Below, one piece after another: positions 5,346-19,266 of a stretch of 22,518 nt of DNA. The number at the start of each line of letters is the position of its first letter. Positions within the stretch are counted from its first letter, which is position 1. Made by a program: the position numbers and the translations under genes. The notes beneath the pieces are model-generated. The model did no database searches and had not been told where the DNA came from. It saw nothing but the letters and a program-made list of their open reading frames with translations. The DNA is from a virus, in the IMG/VR virus record IMGVR_UViG_3300042090_001335, positions 1-22,518 of that record; one strand, written 5' to 3'.

Positions 5346-6071
5346 ATGATCAAGTACCACCGTAACAACATCGTGTTTCGAATCGCGTCGGCAGACGCCA
5401 TCGGCAAGTTCAAGCAGATTCAGGCTCACTCGTTCATGCAGCTTTCCCGCAAGGAGCTTTGCTTTGACGAGAGCGCGCGTGAAGCGGTTCTTCTTGAGTA
5501 TGATCGGCTTTCGCAGTGGATCTTCCGCATCGAAAAGATCTGCATGTACGCAGGCGAGGACAAGGTTTCGGCACAGCTTCGTAACGCCATCCTTGAATCC
5601 TTTCACGACGAGATCGCCGTGATCGAGAGCGTGCTTGAGACTAACACCGAGATTTTCTCTCGTCAGGTGTTTGAGTTCATGCGCACGATACACGGCTACA
5701 GCAATCACATCACCCATGACTTCGTGAAGGCGGAGATGAACTTCCGCACAGATCAGATGTACACCGCGGTCGTGAGCACCATTTCGAATTATCTGCAGCA
5801 CACGCTCATCGCGCTGCACGAGTTCAACAACAACTGCATCACGAAGACTGAAACGCCTTTTGTGTGCCTAACCGACTTTTGCGCTGAGTCTGACACCCGA
5901 TTTGTTGGGCTGTCTAAGCGCGCGATGTTCTTCAAGAGCGCCGGATGTGGTTCCACATTTGTGCTCAAGAACTATTCTAAACCGGAATACTTTGATGAGG
6001 CAAAGGAATATCTTGCCGGACTCGGATTTGCTGTTGAGCCAGAGCCGGAATTAGAATTTGCACGTGTTTGA
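5346..6071 (+). CDS. Unrecognised 241-aa protein, last gene of the late operon
   Basis: Not recognised. Most of the chain (about 10-165) looks helical, with long amphipathic stretches (E-S-F-H-D-E-I-A-V-I-E-S-V-L-E-T). The last 75 residues have more Cys, Phe and Gly and a segment resembling a small alpha/beta domain. No membrane segment or catalytic motif stands out. The ATG follows the upstream TAA directly; the SD (GGAG) lies within the end of the previous gene. The stop TGA at 6069-6071 is two bases before an inverted repeat that spans the next late promoter. Its job is unknown; context says late expression. Confidence 0.75.
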   Translation: MIKYHRNNIVFRIASADAIGKFKQIQAHSFMQLSRKELCFDESAREAVLLEYDRLSQWIFRIEKICMYAGEDKVSAQLRNAILESFHDEIAVIESVLETNTEIFSRQVFEFMRTIHGYSNHITHDFVKAEMNFRTDQMYTAVVSTISNYLQHTLIALHEFNNNCITKTETPFVCLTDFCAESDTRFVGLSKRAMFFKSAGCGSTFVLKNYSKPEYFDEAKEYLAGLGFAVEPEPELEFARV

Positions 6072-6072
6072 G

Positions 6073-6109
6073 ATCCCATCGGATAAATATCGGTAGGAGA
6101 GAATGGGAT
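6073..6109 (+). promoter_or_regulatory. Inverted repeat spanning late promoter and next to the RBS
   Basis: ATCCCAT (6073-6079) is perfectly complementary to ATGGGAT (6103-6109), and the late promoter lies in the 23-nt loop. In a read-through transcript from the upstream operon the right arm, including GGGA just before ATG 6114, would be paired. A transcript starting at the late promoter lacks the left arm and leaves the RBS free. T4 genes such as e and soc are known to use this layout to block translation of early transcripts. Applying it here is inference. Confidence 0.5.
6082..6089 (+). promoter_or_regulatory. T4-type late promoter (GATAAATA)
   Basis: It matches TATAAATA at seven of eight positions. 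It sits between the stop of the upstream gene (6071) and ATG 6114, with an expected start site near 6095. AGGAGAG (6095-6101) and GGGA (6105-6108) are the candidate SD elements. Confidence 0.65.
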
Positions 6110-6691: not shown

Positions 6692-6699
6692 CATAAATA
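6692..6699 (+). promoter_or_regulatory. T4-type late promoter (CATAAATA)
   Basis: Seven of eight positions match TATAAATA, three bases after the stop of the coiled-coil gene. The expected start is near 6705; AGAGG at 6716-6720 is the SD for ATG 6731. A small hairpin (GGCT-TGT-AGCC, 6719-6729) lies between SD and start and may shorten the effective spacing. Confidence 0.7.
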
Positions 6700-12110: not shown

Positions 12111-12347
12111 TTATTGTTCTGCTGAGAGGATTGCATATCCCGCTCTAGCAGAGGTCCAGGTAATCTGCACATTATTTACGTCAACGTGCGTAACGGTATA
12201 GGGGAAAGCCTTCGTCAGGTTGCTGCTGTCATCGTACGCGTTGACCTCAACGATCGGCATCTTCCCGAAGTTGTGAGCAATGTTCCACGTTGAAGCTGGA
12301 GACGATTGCTGATAGTCCAGGTACAGAACTCCAGATTGAATCGGCAT
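12111..12347 (-). CDS. Stand-alone HNLG-type fibre-tip module (78 aa)
   Basis: The whole protein is one beta-rich module: S-T-W21-N-I-A-H25-N-F-G28 near the start and N-N-V-Q-I-T-W-T near the end. The same module occurs in the four preceding fibre-type genes. SD AAGGA precedes ATG 12347 by 5 nt. No signal peptide or TM is present. Because two copies of this module form the C termini of long fibres, this short protein may be a separate tip, an adhesin subunit or a decoration protein. It could also be a leftover from fibre-gene recombination. Its intact frame and SD argue for real expression. Confidence 0.75.
   Translation of the reverse strand: MPIQSGVLYLDYQQSSPASTWNIAHNFGKMPIVEVNAYDDSSNLTKAFPYTVTHVDVNNVQITWTSARAGYAILSAEQ
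12120..12314 (-). repeat. HNLG module, copy 1
   Basis: It encodes Y12 to about A76 of the 78-aa protein. Key residues: W21, H25, N26, F27, G28 and the terminal strand V-Q-I-T-W. A stand-alone copy. Confidence 0.75.
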
Positions 12348-12355
12348 CTTCGTCC

Positions 12356-12604
12356 TTATTGCACCACGACCGCGAAGCCGGTTTCGGCGTTCGTAAACGT
12401 GACTGTCAGGTTGTTGTTGTCGACGATCGTTGTTTCAAGCGGGATGATCTTCGAGTACGTGCCGGAGTTGTTGATGTACACGTCAACAACGGGCGCGAAC
12501 CCGTTGTTCCCACCAAGATTGTGGGCGATGGTCCACGTTGACGCAGCGGTTGACTGCGTGTGACGGTACGCCGAAGGTACGAAGAAGCCGCTTGCGTTGG
12601 TCAT
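12356..12604 (-). CDS. Stand-alone HNLG-type fibre-tip module (82 aa)
   Basis: Twelve leading residues are followed by one module: A-S-T-W24-T-I-A-H28-N-L-G31, ending N-N-L-T-V-T-F-T-N-A-E-T-G-F-A-V-V. It includes a 4-5 residue insertion (G-N-N-G-F) after the H-N-L-G turn that the other copies lack. ATG 12604 shares its first base with the last base of the previous stop (TAATG), with AGGA eight bases upstream, so translation is likely coupled. As with its neighbour, the protein consists of little else than the shared module. A virion tip or accessory adhesin is the best guess. Confidence 0.75.
   Translation of the reverse strand: MTNASGFFVPSAYRHTQSTAASTWTIAHNLGGNNGFAPVVDVYINNSGTYSKIIPLETTIVDNNNLTVTFTNAETGFAVVVQ
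12359..12568 (-). repeat. HNLG module, copy 2
   Basis: It encodes Y13 to the end of the 82-aa protein. Key residues: W24, H28, N29, L30, G31 and the terminal strand L-T-V-T-F. A stand-alone copy with a small insertion after the turn. Confidence 0.75.
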
Positions 12605-13206
12605 TAGATCAGTCCTGCAAAACCAGTCTGTGCGGTAGCGAACGTGATGGTCAGCTGATCAAGCGAGTTGAACGTAATCGACTGTGGCTGAACTTCTTGG
12701 TAACCGACAAACGCGCGAACGGTAGGGTAGCGACCGAGATTGTGCGTGATGACCCAAGTCGTTGATGGCGATGACTGAACGTACTCGTAGGAGTAGGTCG
12801 GCTTTTGGTTACCCTGCAGGCAGCCAGAAACCAGAACCGCCTTACCTTGCTGACCCGCGCCAAACGTGATCGTGATCTGCGAGTTGCTATTGATCGTAAT
12901 GCTGTCTGGAAGAATGACTTGGCTTGACAGATTGTACACCATCACCTGCACAGCAGACGTGTTAAGTGGGTGCGTGATAGTCCACGTCGTTGACGCGGCT
13001 GGCTGGTTGTATGTGTACGCGGTGATCTCATTAGTCAGCGGGATCCAGATAGGAGTGCCGCTGTTGAGGCTCACGCAGATGTAAAGAATGCCGCTGGTAA
13101 AGACGAGCTGTCCGACCACCGGAGATGTTGGGAAGGCTGACTCAACCGCGAGAGCCGGTTCAGTCACGTAGTTTTGCTGCAGTTCCGCTGATCCGTAAAA
13201 CTTCAT
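12604..13206 (-). CDS. Tail-fibre-like protein with two tandem HNLG modules
   Basis: A 200-aa protein. Residues 25-60 resemble the short phage-fibre motif V-V-G-Q-L-V-F...L-Y-I-C-V...W-I-P-L. Module 1 (about 64-128) contains T-T-W75-T-I-T-H79-P-L-N, in which the usual N-L-G is altered. Module 2 (138-200) contains T-T-W151-V-I-T-H155-N-L-G. Both end with a strand of type Q-[IL]-T-I-T-F. It is the first gene after the terminator at 13225-13252, with SD GGAGAG before ATG 13206. A short adhesin or fibre tip with doubled receptor-facing domains is likely. No receptor can be inferred. Confidence 0.75.
   Translation of the reverse strand: MKFYGSAELQQNYVTEPALAVESAFPTSPVVGQLVFTSGILYICVSLNSGTPIWIPLTNEITAYTYNQPAASTTWTITHPLNTSAVQVMVYNLSSQVILPDSITINSNSQITITFGAGQQGKAVLVSGCLQGNQKPTYSYEYVQSSPSTTWVITHNLGRYPTVRAFVGYQEVQPQSITFNSLDQLTITFATAQTGFAGLI
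12607..12795 (-). repeat. HNLG module, copy 3
   Basis: It encodes residues 138-200 of the 200-aa protein. Key residues: W151, H155, N156, L157, G158, then P-Q-S-I-T-F and L-T-I-T-F. The second of a tandem pair. Confidence 0.75.
12823..13017 (-). repeat. HNLG module, copy 4 (altered turn)
   Basis: It encodes about residues 64-128 of the 200-aa protein. W75 and H79 are kept, but the turn reads H-P-L-N instead of H-N-L-G. The later strands L-P-D-S-I-T-I and I-T-I-T-F align with the other copies. Confidence 0.7.
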
Positions 13207-13224
13207 TTGTCTCTCCAGAGAGAA

Positions 13225-13252
13225 AGAAGGGACTCCCGCAGGAGTCCCTTCT
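13225..13252 (-). terminator. Strong intrinsic terminator after the large fibre gene
   Basis: An 11-12 bp perfect stem (left arm 13225-13236, right arm 13241-13252) with a 4-nt loop. Read on the minus strand the loop is C(TGCG)G, a UNCG-class stable tetraloop, followed by TTTCTCTCT. It lies between the fibre stop at 13286 and ATG 13206, and the SD of the next gene begins directly after its T-rich tail. Confidence 0.85.
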
Positions 13253-13285
13253 CATTTAGCTAAGGCTAACTGATCAGGGATCAGC

Positions 13286-16159
13286 TTAGTTCAGCGGTAC
13301 GCCCATCACAACAACGCGGCACTGGATCGAAGACGTGAACGTTACGGTCAGCGTGTTGGTATCAGTGAACGTGATCGACTGAGGAATGATCACGTCGTCT
13401 GAGTAGTCAACAACCGTTACGTTGCAGTACTTTTGACCGAGGTTGTGCACAACGGTGAAGGACGAAGCAGCGGTTGAACCGTTGTAGAGGTAGTAGATCG
13501 AGTCGTTCGTCCACTTGCTGGTTGTAGCGTCGTAAACGAGAACTTGACCAGAAGCTGGGGTTGTGTCAGCGACGTCAGACAGGTCACCAATCGACTGGGT
13601 CGACAGCACAGAGGCGCGAGTAGCGTTGGTCCACTTGGTGCCGTTGAAGGTCAGAAGATCGTTCGTTGCCGCCGTATCGACTGAAGCATTGACGTTCGTG
13701 ATGTTTCCACCGCCGAGAGTCGTGCTGACAGCGAGGGCGCCAGACGTGTTCGTAAGACCGCTGAGTGACGCACCAGCAGAAACCAGACCGAGAGCGCTCG
13801 AAGTTGCGGTAGCAACGTTGATCGTCAGGGTGCCAGCGCTGGAAACCGTCGTGACTGGGGAAGAACCGCCAACGATCGAAAGCGTATTACCCAGGTTGAT
13901 TGCTTGGGCGCCGCCTGTAGTACCCGAGACGCTGAAGGAGCTGTGCGCCAGCATTGCGTTCGTGACACCAGCAGAAGCGATGTCGACGTTACCAGCGGTA
14001 ACTGCGAACGTGTTTGCAAAGCTTGCAACACCCTTCTGGCTGTTCGAAGCATTGGATGCGGTAATCGTGACTGCGCTGCCAGTTACAGAGGTAGAGATAC
14101 CCTGTGCCGAAGTGCCGAACACGCTAGCCGTACCACCCAGGGAAACTGAACCCGTACCAGCGTCAGCGTCAAGGGTGAACGAGCTGTTTGCCAGCATTGC
14201 GTTCGTCACGCCAGCTGCAGAGATCGTCAGACCAGATGCGCCCTGAGAAAGACCGCTACCCGATGCCAGCAGAAGGAACAGTCCAGCGCCGACTGTGTCG
14301 GAACGGGTTGAGCCGTCTTGCGTAAGGATCAGAGCAGAAGTGCTTTCGTCAAAGAGGTCAACACCGATGTCACCCGTTGGGTTAGCGGTGATACCTGCAC
14401 CGTAGACGGCAGAGATGGTGTTACCGGAGATGCTGATACCAGTACCGCCAACGTAGACCGCACCGCCAGAGAACTGAACAAAGTTCAGAACGTTCGTGTC
14501 GACAACGCCAGGGTTGGAGTTGCAGAGCCAGCCGGTATCGTGGTTGAGAGTACCATTCTCAACGAAGACAGCTGAGTCATCTGCATTCGAACCAACCGCC
14601 ATGTCAGATGCGCGAGTAAGAACGAATGGAGCGCCAGCATTACCGGTTGCGGTAACGACGTAGATACCGTTCTGGGTCTTGGTGGTTTGACCAGCGAGCA
14701 GAAGGCGGTCATTAACAGCTACGGTGTAGCCGTCAACAACGAGGGCGCCATTTGCAGAAGCTGTGAGGACTGGAGCTGCGTAGGTAGAAGCAAGGTTCGT
14801 GCTCGAGAGAGCTTGAACTGGGTTCTTCCAGGAGAGACCAGAAACTGAAGCGTCGACATAACCCTTCGTAGCTGCATCGGTAGCAGCGACTGGAGTTGCG
14901 AGGTTGGTGATTGAGAAACCACCCATCGCGATACCACCCGTCATCGTACCGCCAGAGGTTGGCAGGTAGTACGTGCCGAGAAGACCGGTCAGATCGCCGA
15001 TGACGACTGGGGTGTTGTCAACGACACGACCATAACCGTCAACCGTGAACTTCAGGAATGAACCAGAAGAACCTTGGGTAACAGTTGCGAGGTCGATCGT
15101 AGGAGCGGATGCAACGCCATCGCCGTTCGTTACCGTGATGCGTGAGGACGAACCAGTAAGGATCGAACGCATCGTTGCGACGCCGTCGGCCGTGAAGACG
15201 ACGAAGCCGTATGGTGAGGAAAGGCTTTCGATTGCAGCGAGGTTGTGCGTGACTGAAAGGGTTGGGTTGCCTGCAACACCATTGCCATTTGCAATGGCAA
15301 GACCCGTACCGGAAACAGCGATCGAAACGTCAGTGACCGTGTTGACGCCAGTCTGAACGATCAGACCAGTACCAGCACCACCAAGCAGAGTAGAAACTGC
15401 TGAGAGACCAGCGTTGCTTGCTTGCTTGTTATTCAGCTGCGTTTGGATGTTGCTGGTTACGCCGCTGAGGTAGCTCAGCTGAGTCGACGTGATTGCCGCG
15501 CTTGCGAAAGAACCCGTACCAGCAGCAGCGCCAGTCAGAAGGTTCAGATCAGAAGAAGAGGCCGTGACACTGAACATTCCGCTCAGCGTTGGGGTGTAGT
15601 TGACCCACTGTGAACCGTTGTACTCGAGGATCTGACCACTTGCTGGTGACGTCAGCGTGACATCAGATGCGTCAGCAAGAACGAGCGTGTGGTTCATCCA
15701 GTACGTGCCATTCCACTGGAGGAACTGCCCCGACGTGAGGGTGCCAGACCAAGTAGCATCACCACCTGCAACGTCCTTCAGGTACTGAAGGTAGTCGTCG
15801 GTCTTGATTTGACCGTCGAGGGTGATAAGCGCGTTGGTGACTGAGGTTGCGCCGGTCAGGTAGTTGGTTGTCGAGAATGCCGAAGCGTTCCAGACACCAG
15901 TTGTACCATTGACCATCGTACCGAGGGATGCCAGCGTGTTTGACAGGTACGTTGCCGTCTGGGAAGCATTGCCACCAGAAGCAAACGTCTGCCATGCCGT
16001 ACCGTCGTTGTACTTGAAAACGCCGGATGTCGTGTTGAAGTAAATGCGGCCCTTGTCATTCGCGGTGAACGATGGGTCAGAGGCGAGCTGTTCGAAGAAC
16101 GCATTGTAGATCGCGCCAGAACCGCCTGAATTGAGTACTAGATTACCATTAAGTTGCAT
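13286..16159 (-). CDS. Large mosaic tail fibre (957 aa) with C-terminal HNLG tip
   Basis: It is built from units common in phage fibres. Residues 28-60 carry a G-R-I-Y-F-N-T-T...W-Q-T-F motif. L-Q-W-N/L-E-Y-N/L-V-Y-D with S-G-Q occurs at about 142-150, 172-186 and 868-884. D-L-N-L-L-T-G and L-S-Y-L-S-G-V-T-S-N-I-Q-T-Q-L fall in 204-242. T-K-G-Y-V-D-A is at 431-437, N-D-R-L-L-L-A-G-Q and Q-N-G-I-Y-V-V-T at 483-503, and G-V-T-N-A-M-L-A-x-S-S-F at 650 and 731. Residues 890-957 are an HNLG module with Phe in place of the usual Trp. The expected shape is a long trimeric beta-structured fibre with a receptor-facing C-terminal tip. SD GGGAGAG precedes ATG 16159. Transcription probably comes from the late promoter at 16476. 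No chaperone domain is seen in the protein itself. Confidence 0.85.
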   Translation of the reverse strand: MQLNGNLVLNSGGSGAIYNAFFEQLASDPSFTANDKGRIYFNTTSGVFKYNDGTAWQTFASGGNASQTATYLSNTLASLGTMVNGTTGVWNASAFSTTNYLTGATSVTNALITLDGQIKTDDYLQYLKDVAGGDATWSGTLTSGQFLQWNGTYWMNHTLVLADASDVTLTSPASGQILEYNGSQWVNYTPTLSGMFSVTASSSDLNLLTGAAAGTGSFASAAITSTQLSYLSGVTSNIQTQLNNKQASNAGLSAVSTLLGGAGTGLIVQTGVNTVTDVSIAVSGTGLAIANGNGVAGNPTLSVTHNLAAIESLSSPYGFVVFTADGVATMRSILTGSSSRITVTNGDGVASAPTIDLATVTQGSSGSFLKFTVDGYGRVVDNTPVVIGDLTGLLGTYYLPTSGGTMTGGIAMGGFSITNLATPVAATDAATKGYVDASVSGLSWKNPVQALSSTNLASTYAAPVLTASANGALVVDGYTVAVNDRLLLAGQTTKTQNGIYVVTATGNAGAPFVLTRASDMAVGSNADDSAVFVENGTLNHDTGWLCNSNPGVVDTNVLNFVQFSGGAVYVGGTGISISGNTISAVYGAGITANPTGDIGVDLFDESTSALILTQDGSTRSDTVGAGLFLLLASGSGLSQGASGLTISAAGVTNAMLANSSFTLDADAGTGSVSLGGTASVFGTSAQGISTSVTGSAVTITASNASNSQKGVASFANTFAVTAGNVDIASAGVTNAMLAHSSFSVSGTTGGAQAINLGNTLSIVGGSSPVTTVSSAGTLTINVATATSSALGLVSAGASLSGLTNTSGALAVSTTLGGGNITNVNASVDTAATNDLLTFNGTKWTNATRASVLSTQSIGDLSDVADTTPASGQVLVYDATTSKWTNDSIYYLYNGSTAASSFTVVHNLGQKYCNVTVVDYSDDVIIPQSITFTDTNTLTVTFTSSIQCRVVVMGVPLN
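13289..13492 (-). repeat. HNLG module, copy 5 (fibre tip)
   Basis: The last 68 codons of the 957-aa fibre. S-S-F901-T-V-V-H-N-L-G, then I-I-P-Q-S-I-T-F and T-L-T-V-T-F. Phe replaces the Trp found in the other copies. Confidence 0.75.
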
Positions 16160-16194
16160 GAATGCTCTCCCTGAGTTTTAGTTCTATCGCTGAC

Positions 16195-16425
16195 TCACAT
16201 CGTTCTGCGGGACGCCGTCGTAAGGGCTTTAATCGCAGAATTGAATTGGACCGGCTCTACCTTGAGGTTGCCGAGGTCATAGTCATTGACAACGCTTTCA
16301 TCGACTTCATTGAAGAAGAAAATACCCTTGTTGCCGATTTTCTGAATGGTGTCGAGCTTATAGCCCAGCACTTTCAGCGTTGCGGCCAACACGATATCTT
16401 GAGTCTCGATAATACGCTTTGACAT
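16195..16425 (-). CDS. Small conserved phage protein, DUF5659-like
   Basis: A 76-aa protein with the pattern T-x-D-I-V-L-A-A-x-L-K-V-L-G-Y near the N terminus. A G-I-F-F-F-N-E-V-D strand, D-Y-D-L-G-N, and F-N-S-A-I-K-A-L-T-T-A-S-R-R at the end follow. This strongly resembles small phage proteins I know as DUF5659; the label is from memory of the pattern, not a search. Function of the family is unknown. It has its own late promoter 50 nt upstream and sits 35 nt before the large fibre gene, so the two are probably co-transcribed. A regulatory or assembly role for the fibre is possible but unsupported. Confidence 0.65.
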   Translation of the reverse strand: MSKRIIETQDIVLAATLKVLGYKLDTIQKIGNKGIFFFNEVDESVVNDYDLGNLKVEPVQFNSAIKALTTASRRTM

Positions 16426-16475
16426 GATCTCGTCACCCTATTGTTCTTGAGTTTTGATAGAAGATGAATCGAGAG

Positions 16476-16483
16476 TATTTATG
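16476..16483 (-). promoter_or_regulatory. T4-type late promoter (CATAAATA, minus strand)
   Basis: The plus strand reads TATTTATG, giving CATAAATA on the minus strand (seven of eight with TATAAATA). The expected start is near 16470, about 45 nt before ATG 16425. It would drive the 76-aa gene and the large fibre gene up to the terminator at 13225-13252. Confidence 0.7.
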
Positions 16484-16506
16484 GGAAGAGGTTTCCCGGA
16501 CTAGAT

Positions 16507-17493
16507 TTAGAACAACACAAGGACAGCCGTTCCTGCCTGCTGGGCTTGGAAGGTTACCTGGATGTTGTTGACGTCTACGATGTGAACCGATTGCGGAATG
16601 ATTTGATCGAAGTTAGTGTCGTAGATGGTAACTTGCACGTTCGTCGTGTTTCCGTTGTGATTTACGGTCCACGAGAGAGCCGCGACCGAAACAACTTGCG
16701 AGAAACCCTTGACGTTGCCACCACCTGTATTCACATTGTTGATGTTCGTCTGCAGGTCTGCAAGGGCTTCTTGAACGTTCGTAGCCCCAGAGAGACCTAC
16801 GATCGGCAGAATGTCAACATCGCCCGCCATGTGGCGGTAGGGAGCTTCACCGGACTGGTGCTCGTAGACTTCATTCGCCAGCGCGATGATGTCAACCCCG
16901 TTTATGAGACCGCCACCCACTACATTGTTTGAACCCGGCAGCAAGCTTTCAATTGTAGAACCAACGGTGAGGTTCTGCGTGAACGTTCCAGCACCGCTTG
17001 CGCTGATCGTAAAGACTGACGCACCGGTGTGGAGGTTGATATTGACGAGGTTTGCTGTCGTCGTGACTTGCGGCTGAATTGTCAGCGCGACCGTGCTTGC
17101 GGATGCTGGCGTCAGTAGCCAGTGATCTGCATCGGTAACGATCGTGTCAATGATCGTTGAGCTACCCTCGACAACGAGGTTACCGGAGATCGTAACTGTG
17201 CCGTTAGCGGCATTGATGCGGAAGAAGTTACCGTCACCGCCGCCAGTCGCGTCAGTGATAAGGAAGTCTTTTCCTGCCTGTAGCTGGATTCCAGCGGCAC
17301 CAGCGACAGTAGGTGAACCTACGTACGCTGACTGCAGCGTAATGCCAGTATTTCCAGTGTCAAGGAGAACCGCAACGCCACCAACCGTGAAGGAGGTGTT
17401 CGTTGTTCCACCGGCGTTGATGAGCCCGCCATCAGGCAGCTGCGCCTGAATGCCATTGGTACCAAGGTAGATTGGTTTGAGGGCGGTCGTCAT
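16507..17493 (-). CDS. Tail-fibre-like protein (328 aa) with C-terminal HNLG tip
   Basis: Residues 1-260 are Gly/Thr/Ser/Ala-rich beta-type sequence. They include G-N-F-F-R-I-N-A-A-N-G-T-V-T-I-S-G-N (about 87-104) and N-L-T-V-G-S-T-I-E (about 175), motifs typical of phage fibre shafts. Residues about 225-258 form a more polar, helical section (I-I-A-L-A-N-E-V-Y-E-H, V-Q-E-A-L-A-D-L-Q-T-N-I). Residues 263-328 are an HNLG module with L-S-W-T-V-N-H-N-G. The start shares one base with the upstream stop (TAATG). It is the last gene of the unit running from the late promoter at 19259. A second fibre or fibre-joint protein carrying the same tip class as the 957-aa fibre is likely. Confidence 0.8.
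   Translation of the reverse strand: MTTALKPIYLGTNGIQAQLPDGGLINAGGTTNTSFTVGGVAVLLDTGNTGITLQSAYVGSPTVAGAAGIQLQAGKDFLITDATGGGDGNFFRINAANGTVTISGNLVVEGSSTIIDTIVTDADHWLLTPASASTVALTIQPQVTTTANLVNINLHTGASVFTISASGAGTFTQNLTVGSTIESLLPGSNNVVGGGLINGVDIIALANEVYEHQSGEAPYRHMAGDVDILPIVGLSGATNVQEALADLQTNINNVNTGGGNVKGFSQVVSVAALSWTVNHNGNTTNVQVTIYDTNFDQIIPQSVHIVDVNNIQVTFQAQQAGTAVLVLF
16510..16707 (-). repeat. HNLG module, copy 6 (fibre tip)
   Basis: The last 66 codons of the 328-aa fibre. L-S-W-T-V-N-H-N-G lacks the Leu of the usual turn; I-I-P-Q-S-V-H-I and N-N-I-Q-V-T-F follow. I-I-P-Q-S is shared with copy 5. Confidence 0.75.
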
Positions 17494-19258: not shown

Positions 19259-19266
19259 TATTTATG
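19259..19266 (-). promoter_or_regulatory. T4-type late promoter (CATAAATA, minus strand)
   Basis: The plus strand reads TATTTATG. It lies in the 58-nt gap between the stop of the giant virion gene (19278) and ATG 19219. It would drive the 235-aa, 338-aa and 328-aa genes. Confidence 0.75.

Follow-up and report, generated by a model that had tools for sequence, protein, structure and literature searches.

Why would a phage keep, behind the gene for its long fibre, a row of small genes built from the very domain with which that fibre ends? The question is raised by a virus record of 22,518 nucleotides (nt) (IMGVR_UViG_3300042090_001335, positions 1 to 22,518, analysed whole and called "the window" below), in which six copies of one all-beta domain of ~60 residues are spread over five minus-strand genes: A and B, which encode a fibre-like protein of 328 amino acids (aa) and a long fibre of 957 aa; C, 200 aa, with two copies; and S1 and S2 (82 and 78 aa), with one copy each. 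The answer toward which we lean, with somewhat better than even confidence, is that C, S1 and S2 are accessory late appendage subunits made of the fibre's own module, with the module as handle and S2 as the exposed, variable end. Because dozens of giant phages share the row, and because a sugar-binding domain has been added in some of them, these are probably real accessory attachment proteins rather than scraps or spare parts.

The shared domain

With the 78-aa protein as a tblastn query against the record alone, all six copies were recovered (E 5e-52 to 1.5e-4) on the minus strand and free of internal stops, and a hidden Markov model built from the six returned the same six; an earlier note on this DNA, made from the letters alone, had counted six copies in five genes, four of them outside the long fibres, and had placed them correctly. 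The short open reading frames (ORFs) are credible as genes: they have Shine-Dalgarno sites, the 200- and 82-aa genes overlap (TAATG), only 8 nt separate the latter from the 78-aa gene, and they are kept in many phages. The five are near neighbours rather than strictly adjacent, since a domain-less 76-aa gene sits between the 328- and 957-aa genes.

Profile searches of the window proteins placed no Pfam family (immunoglobulin-like [Ig] families included) and no NCBIfam family over the domain, NCBIfam and plasmid searches gave no useful match, and a literature search found no published description of it. Several PHROGs of no assigned function do cover it, among them phrog_28944, a 73-aa family that is the domain alone and is matched by both the 82-aa (E 2.7e-10) and the 78-aa protein (E 4.6e-8); the 200-aa protein matches phrog_21918 across residues 1-196 (E 2.3e-49). 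These two families (the second, of 200 aa, likewise without assigned function) thus resemble the single-domain genes and the two-copy gene of the window, whereas in the window there are two single-domain genes, and the library does not state the families' shared domain or fixed order.

The AlphaFold model of S1 is a confident all-beta fold (predicted local distance difference test [pLDDT] 90.3, predicted template modelling score [pTM] 0.76), and its strand order is seen in both copies of the C model, in which the relative placement of the domains is uncertain (pTM 0.47). Foldseek matched 37 viral models, among them those of Yoloswag S1, PaBG B and A, and SNUABM_5 B and C, as well as fibre proteins of the collagen-repeat, S74 and pectate-lyase types; elsewhere the domain also lies internally (up to nine copies per protein) or at the N-terminus. 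Given these matches and the repeats in other phages, the domain is a general all-beta fibre-building module, a family without a Pfam entry or a solved relative and common to many phage fibres. The earlier term "tip domain" fits its terminal place in the 957- and 328-aa fibres and is otherwise too narrow: "tip" names only a position in this window. Giant fibre-like proteins at three loci (L164, L185 and L191) carry five to nine internal copies, the first of them together with collagen repeats.

A gene row kept in jumbo phages

The isolates PaBG, Yoloswag, SNUABM_5, Y3, Alexandra, AD1, fHe-Yen9-02 and NCTB each have an A-type protein, fibre B, a two-copy C of ~200 aa and an S1 of 70-78 aa; hosts named for carriers are Erwinia (Y3, Alexandra, Yoloswag), Dickeya (AD1) and Yersinia (fHe-Yen9-02), and metagenomic relatives join them. 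Altogether 54 loci carry C (42 distinct sequences, from isolates and metagenomic virus contigs), with a domain-ended B upstream and an S1 of ~70-80 aa downstream in 54/54, A in 53 and S2 in 21. As the loci were found by searching for C, the presence of C is built into these counts and that of B or S is not; in the reverse search from S1, all 17 Erwinia-type matches adjoin C. Stand-alone copies therefore do recur beside fibres, as the earlier note had thought worth checking, and the row of tip-only genes that it called unusual is the rule in this group. C and S1 tend to be gained or lost together.

The closest parallel is the "Lupandier" group of hairy Myoviridae (PaBG, Y3, Alexandra, Yoloswag), with which the window shares, at 30-39% identity and on one strand, the order of domain-ended long fibre, two-copy gene of ~200 aa and single-copy gene, in positional orthology. 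Those phages have one single-domain gene and a fibre of ~530-570 aa (B is ~500-570 aa in isolated jumbo phages generally), whereas the clade of the window has two in tandem and a fibre of 957 aa; the likeness is drawn from the fibre cassette, the terminase and capsid genes not being in the window. A scan of genome contigs returned a single match, a Pseudomonas metagenome-assembled genome with a different gene pair. At that locus (L201) and in smaller phages (L067-L101), a domain-ended protein of ~100-310 aa directly precedes another of ~263 aa.

Each copy keeps to its own lineage. Mean identity is 0.33-0.50 within positional classes and mostly 0.23-0.30 between them (0.35 for S1 versus S2); for 207 of the 222 copies, the closest copy from another phage belongs to the same class, and the window's A, B, S1, S2 and both C copies (C1, C2) each find their best match in a same-class copy from another phage. 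In the tree, B (39/39, support 0.996) and C2 (42/42, 0.99) are monophyletic and A largely so (34/40); C1, S1 and S2 do not each resolve into one clade, and S1 and S2 intermingle, which is consistent with tandem duplication. Class-to-class identity is the same within one phage as between phages, so there has been no gene conversion, and the copies are, to judge from these comparisons, passed on by vertical descent and not by exchange. That they are old and clearly diverged had been noticed before; a recent duplication is rejected, as only S1 and S2 resemble a tandem pair and even they are 44% identical.

It had also been proposed that the short genes are donor cassettes for the exchange of fibre tips, an idea that has homology to the fibre ends as its sole attraction and that we consider virtually excluded. 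Not one of the 59 single-domain copies has a fibre-end copy as its nearest neighbour, and exact DNA matches between S genes and fibre ends reach at most 11 nt in the same phage and 16 nt across phages; at this sampling the nearest-neighbour classes and the exact matches together refute the proposal. S1 is, moreover, under purifying selection as an expressed protein (median ratio of nonsynonymous to synonymous substitution rates [dN/dS] 0.127 over 76 pairs; S2 has no close pairs); purifying selection also shows in gene C (0.084) and in the end domains of B and A (0.074). The same value for S1, together with constant length, ribosome sites and intactness in 54/54 loci, leads us to reject decaying fibre remnants, which the small, domain-only genes might call to mind and which we hold to be very improbable.

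The row also appears to be expressed apart from the fibre. A terminator-like hairpin follows B in 38 of 43 distinct loci, compared with 2.5% of random windows, and follows C in one and S1 in none of the 43; its position is conserved, its sequence variable from locus to locus. Little or no space separates C, S1 and S2 (gaps mostly -1 to 13 nt), and in 14 of 18 close relatives the gap before C holds an [AC]TAAATA site, mostly 23-70 nt upstream of the C start, that resembles the late promoter of phage T4, TATAAATA. Taken together, hairpin, packing and sites suggest that the three genes form a separate late transcription unit. In the window, CATAAATA precedes the 76-aa gene by 51 nt and the 235-aa gene by 40 nt.

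Fibre end, S2 slot and possible roles

A receptor-binding fibre would be expected to vary most in its end domain. In B the end domain is instead the best-conserved part (identity 0.56 vs 0.33 elsewhere; 0.83 vs 0.69 in the Erwinia set), a pattern more in keeping with assembly or docking than with a variable tip that binds receptors. By hhalign, the first ~60 residues of C are related to those of B (E 1e-4; E 0.12 with A as control), so that C looks like a fibre without its shaft. In one relative (L056, 7538-9943) fibre B has ~270 residues, without Pfam assignment, beyond the end domain, which is thus not always terminal in B; in another (L143, 6216-7089) two tandem 142-aa genes each join the N-terminal module of C to a single domain copy.

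The second single-domain gene is where variety has been added. In five relatives S2 extends C-terminally beyond the domain, and three of these fusions have Pfam matches: a Laminin_G_3 lectin domain (L028, E 2.9e-19), PKD and FG-GAP repeats (L036, E 4.7e-101) and an F5_F8_type_C domain (L122, E 2.4e-9; this locus has two further single-domain genes). The extensions in L027 and L139 have no Pfam match. This is the best evidence that proteins of the S2 slot bind surfaces in some phages at least, a role that the predicted domains suggest for the extended proteins; the evidence does not reach to the bare 78- and 82-aa ones. Among the answers offered earlier, a surface-binding subunit or a decoration is the favoured kind, because S2 in relatives carries a lectin, F5/8C or beta-propeller extension. 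It is possible, though we would rate it as rather doubtful, that the slot acts as a plug-in socket: an adaptor of one domain, placed at the appendage's end, that bears unrelated carbohydrate- or surface-binding domains in different phages, so that a small late gene of its own would change the specificity and the long fibre could remain as it is.

Put together, the C-S1-S2 late unit, set off from B by the terminator, would make accessory appendage proteins of the virion: C a shaft-less fibre with a B-like N-terminal module and two further modules, S1 and S2 one-module subunits. The module would most likely be the handle by which the subunits join each other or the end of the fibre, and S1 and S2 would form the outward, variable part, S2 presenting a putative glycan- or surface-binding domain in some phages. 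In favour of a place in the virion, the B orthologue of PaBG, gp257, is an abundant virion protein, one of 14 Coomassie-visible bands (PMC7412058, Table 1). For the appendages of hairy jumbo phages, the cassette yields a short list of genes for deletion and localisation.

Several results weigh against an appendage role. The PaBG virion bands include gp257, gp261 and gp263 and not gp258-gp260 (PMC7412058, Table 1); a 10% gel would, however, lose an 8-kDa protein. A literature search found no proteomics containing C or S products. The window itself has no ATAAATA site before C, and in one lineage (L127-L130) a single-domain gene occurs where C is missing. In JA29, Lu11 and Sen-NF the B and A copies are present and both C and S are absent, from which it follows that the end domain of B does not need them; absence from relatives had been named in the earlier note as grounds for doubt, and what it establishes, given the distribution of C and S1, is that the short genes are accessory. 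Finally, Foldseek against the PDB gave no fold match at E<=0.001, so we draw no ligand-binding inference from structure; the best match, to CBM32 (E 0.1), was too weak for a fold relative and was not used as evidence, and a profile-based sequence search of the PDB returned nothing credible.

C and S might instead be helpers in the assembly or folding of fibre B, binding its end domain in the manner of Tfa or gp57-type chaperones and perhaps leaving the particle. Small genes that directly follow the fibre gene and co-occur with B would suit such helpers, as would their absence from the PaBG bands, and still we regard this as unlikely: they are homologous to the fibre's own domain, a lectin, F5/8C domain or propeller on S2 would be strange in a chaperone, a domain-bearing fibre B persists in phages that lack C and S, and no short protein had a profile match to a tail-fibre assembly chaperone family such as Tfa or gp57 (PHROG, Pfam, NCBIfam).

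We give a similarly low probability to the idea that S1 and S2 sit away from fibre B, as decoration on the capsid, the sheath or the "hairs" of hairy myoviruses. A transcription segment of their own would permit a copy number unlike the fibre's, and some PHROGs in which the module occurs bear the label virion structural or head decoration, taken here as database annotation. Hairy morphology is reported for Y3, AD1, Lu11 and the JA phages, with no protein assigned to the hairs in the group (PMC6143709), which leaves room for such a role in Y3 and AD1, whereas Lu11 and the JA phages have neither C nor S; hairs therefore do not require them, and C or S as the hair protein, which should occur in all hairy relatives, is a weakened candidate (Lu11 and JA29 lack both).

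The Ig-like and lectin decoration domains of tailed phages, T4 Hoc among them, are small beta modules that are accessory, gained and lost, repeated in tandem and joined to carbohydrate-binding domains. The window domain is like them as a small, accessory, repeated beta module joined to carbohydrate-binding domains, and unlike them in having no Pfam Ig match and, at the threshold given above, no PDB fold match.

Coordinates and neighbouring features

The order of transcription on the minus strand is 1063-aa, 235-aa, 338-aa, 328-aa (A), 76-aa, 957-aa (B), 200-aa (C), 82-aa (S1) and 78-aa (S2); downstream of S2, on the same strand, follow a 277-aa ORF (likely start 12100), two Rz-like spanins and a peptidase/endolysin.

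Positions of the domain genes, their copies and other features in the window
Feature	Position	Strand	Remarks
Gene A, 328-aa fibre-like protein	16507..17493	minus	domain residues 265-325 (about 16519-16701); orthologous position in relatives (A class)
Gene B, 957-aa long fibre	13286..16159	minus	domain residues 891-951 (about 13307-13489)
Gene C, 200 aa	12604..13206	minus	N-terminal module and two domain copies
Gene C, copy 1	about 12832-13014		residues 65-125
Gene C, copy 2	about 12610-12786		residues 141-199
Gene S1, 82 aa	12356..12604	minus	single domain copy, residues 14-80
Gene S2, 78 aa	12111..12347	minus	single domain copy, residues 11-74; slot with C-terminal extension in five relatives (L027, L028, L036, L122, L139)
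76-aa gene without the domain	16195..16425	minus	precedes gene B; also kept in relatives; Pfam DUF5659 match below threshold
Terminator-like hairpin	13224..13253	minus	between gene B and gene C
CATAAATA	16476..16483	minus	T4-type late promoter lookalike, upstream of 76-aa gene and gene B; TATAAATA match
TATAAATA match	172-179	plus	in a GTG-started ORF
TATAAATA match	6082-6089	plus
TATAAATA match	6692-6699	plus
TATAAATA match	19259-19266	minus
PHROG 19088 homologue	5346-6071	plus	protein of ~250 aa (label: ABC transporter)

The five TATAAATA matches (<=1 mismatch) resemble T4-type late promoters, and all lie ~25-55 nt upstream of a likely gene start, intergenic DNA making up only ~4% of the window; their number is not above chance, and the first of them assumes an ATG start downstream of the GTG. 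The PHROG 19088 homologue lies just upstream of fibre B in Erwinia and Yersinia phages and in PaBG; in the window it is far off, on the opposite strand.

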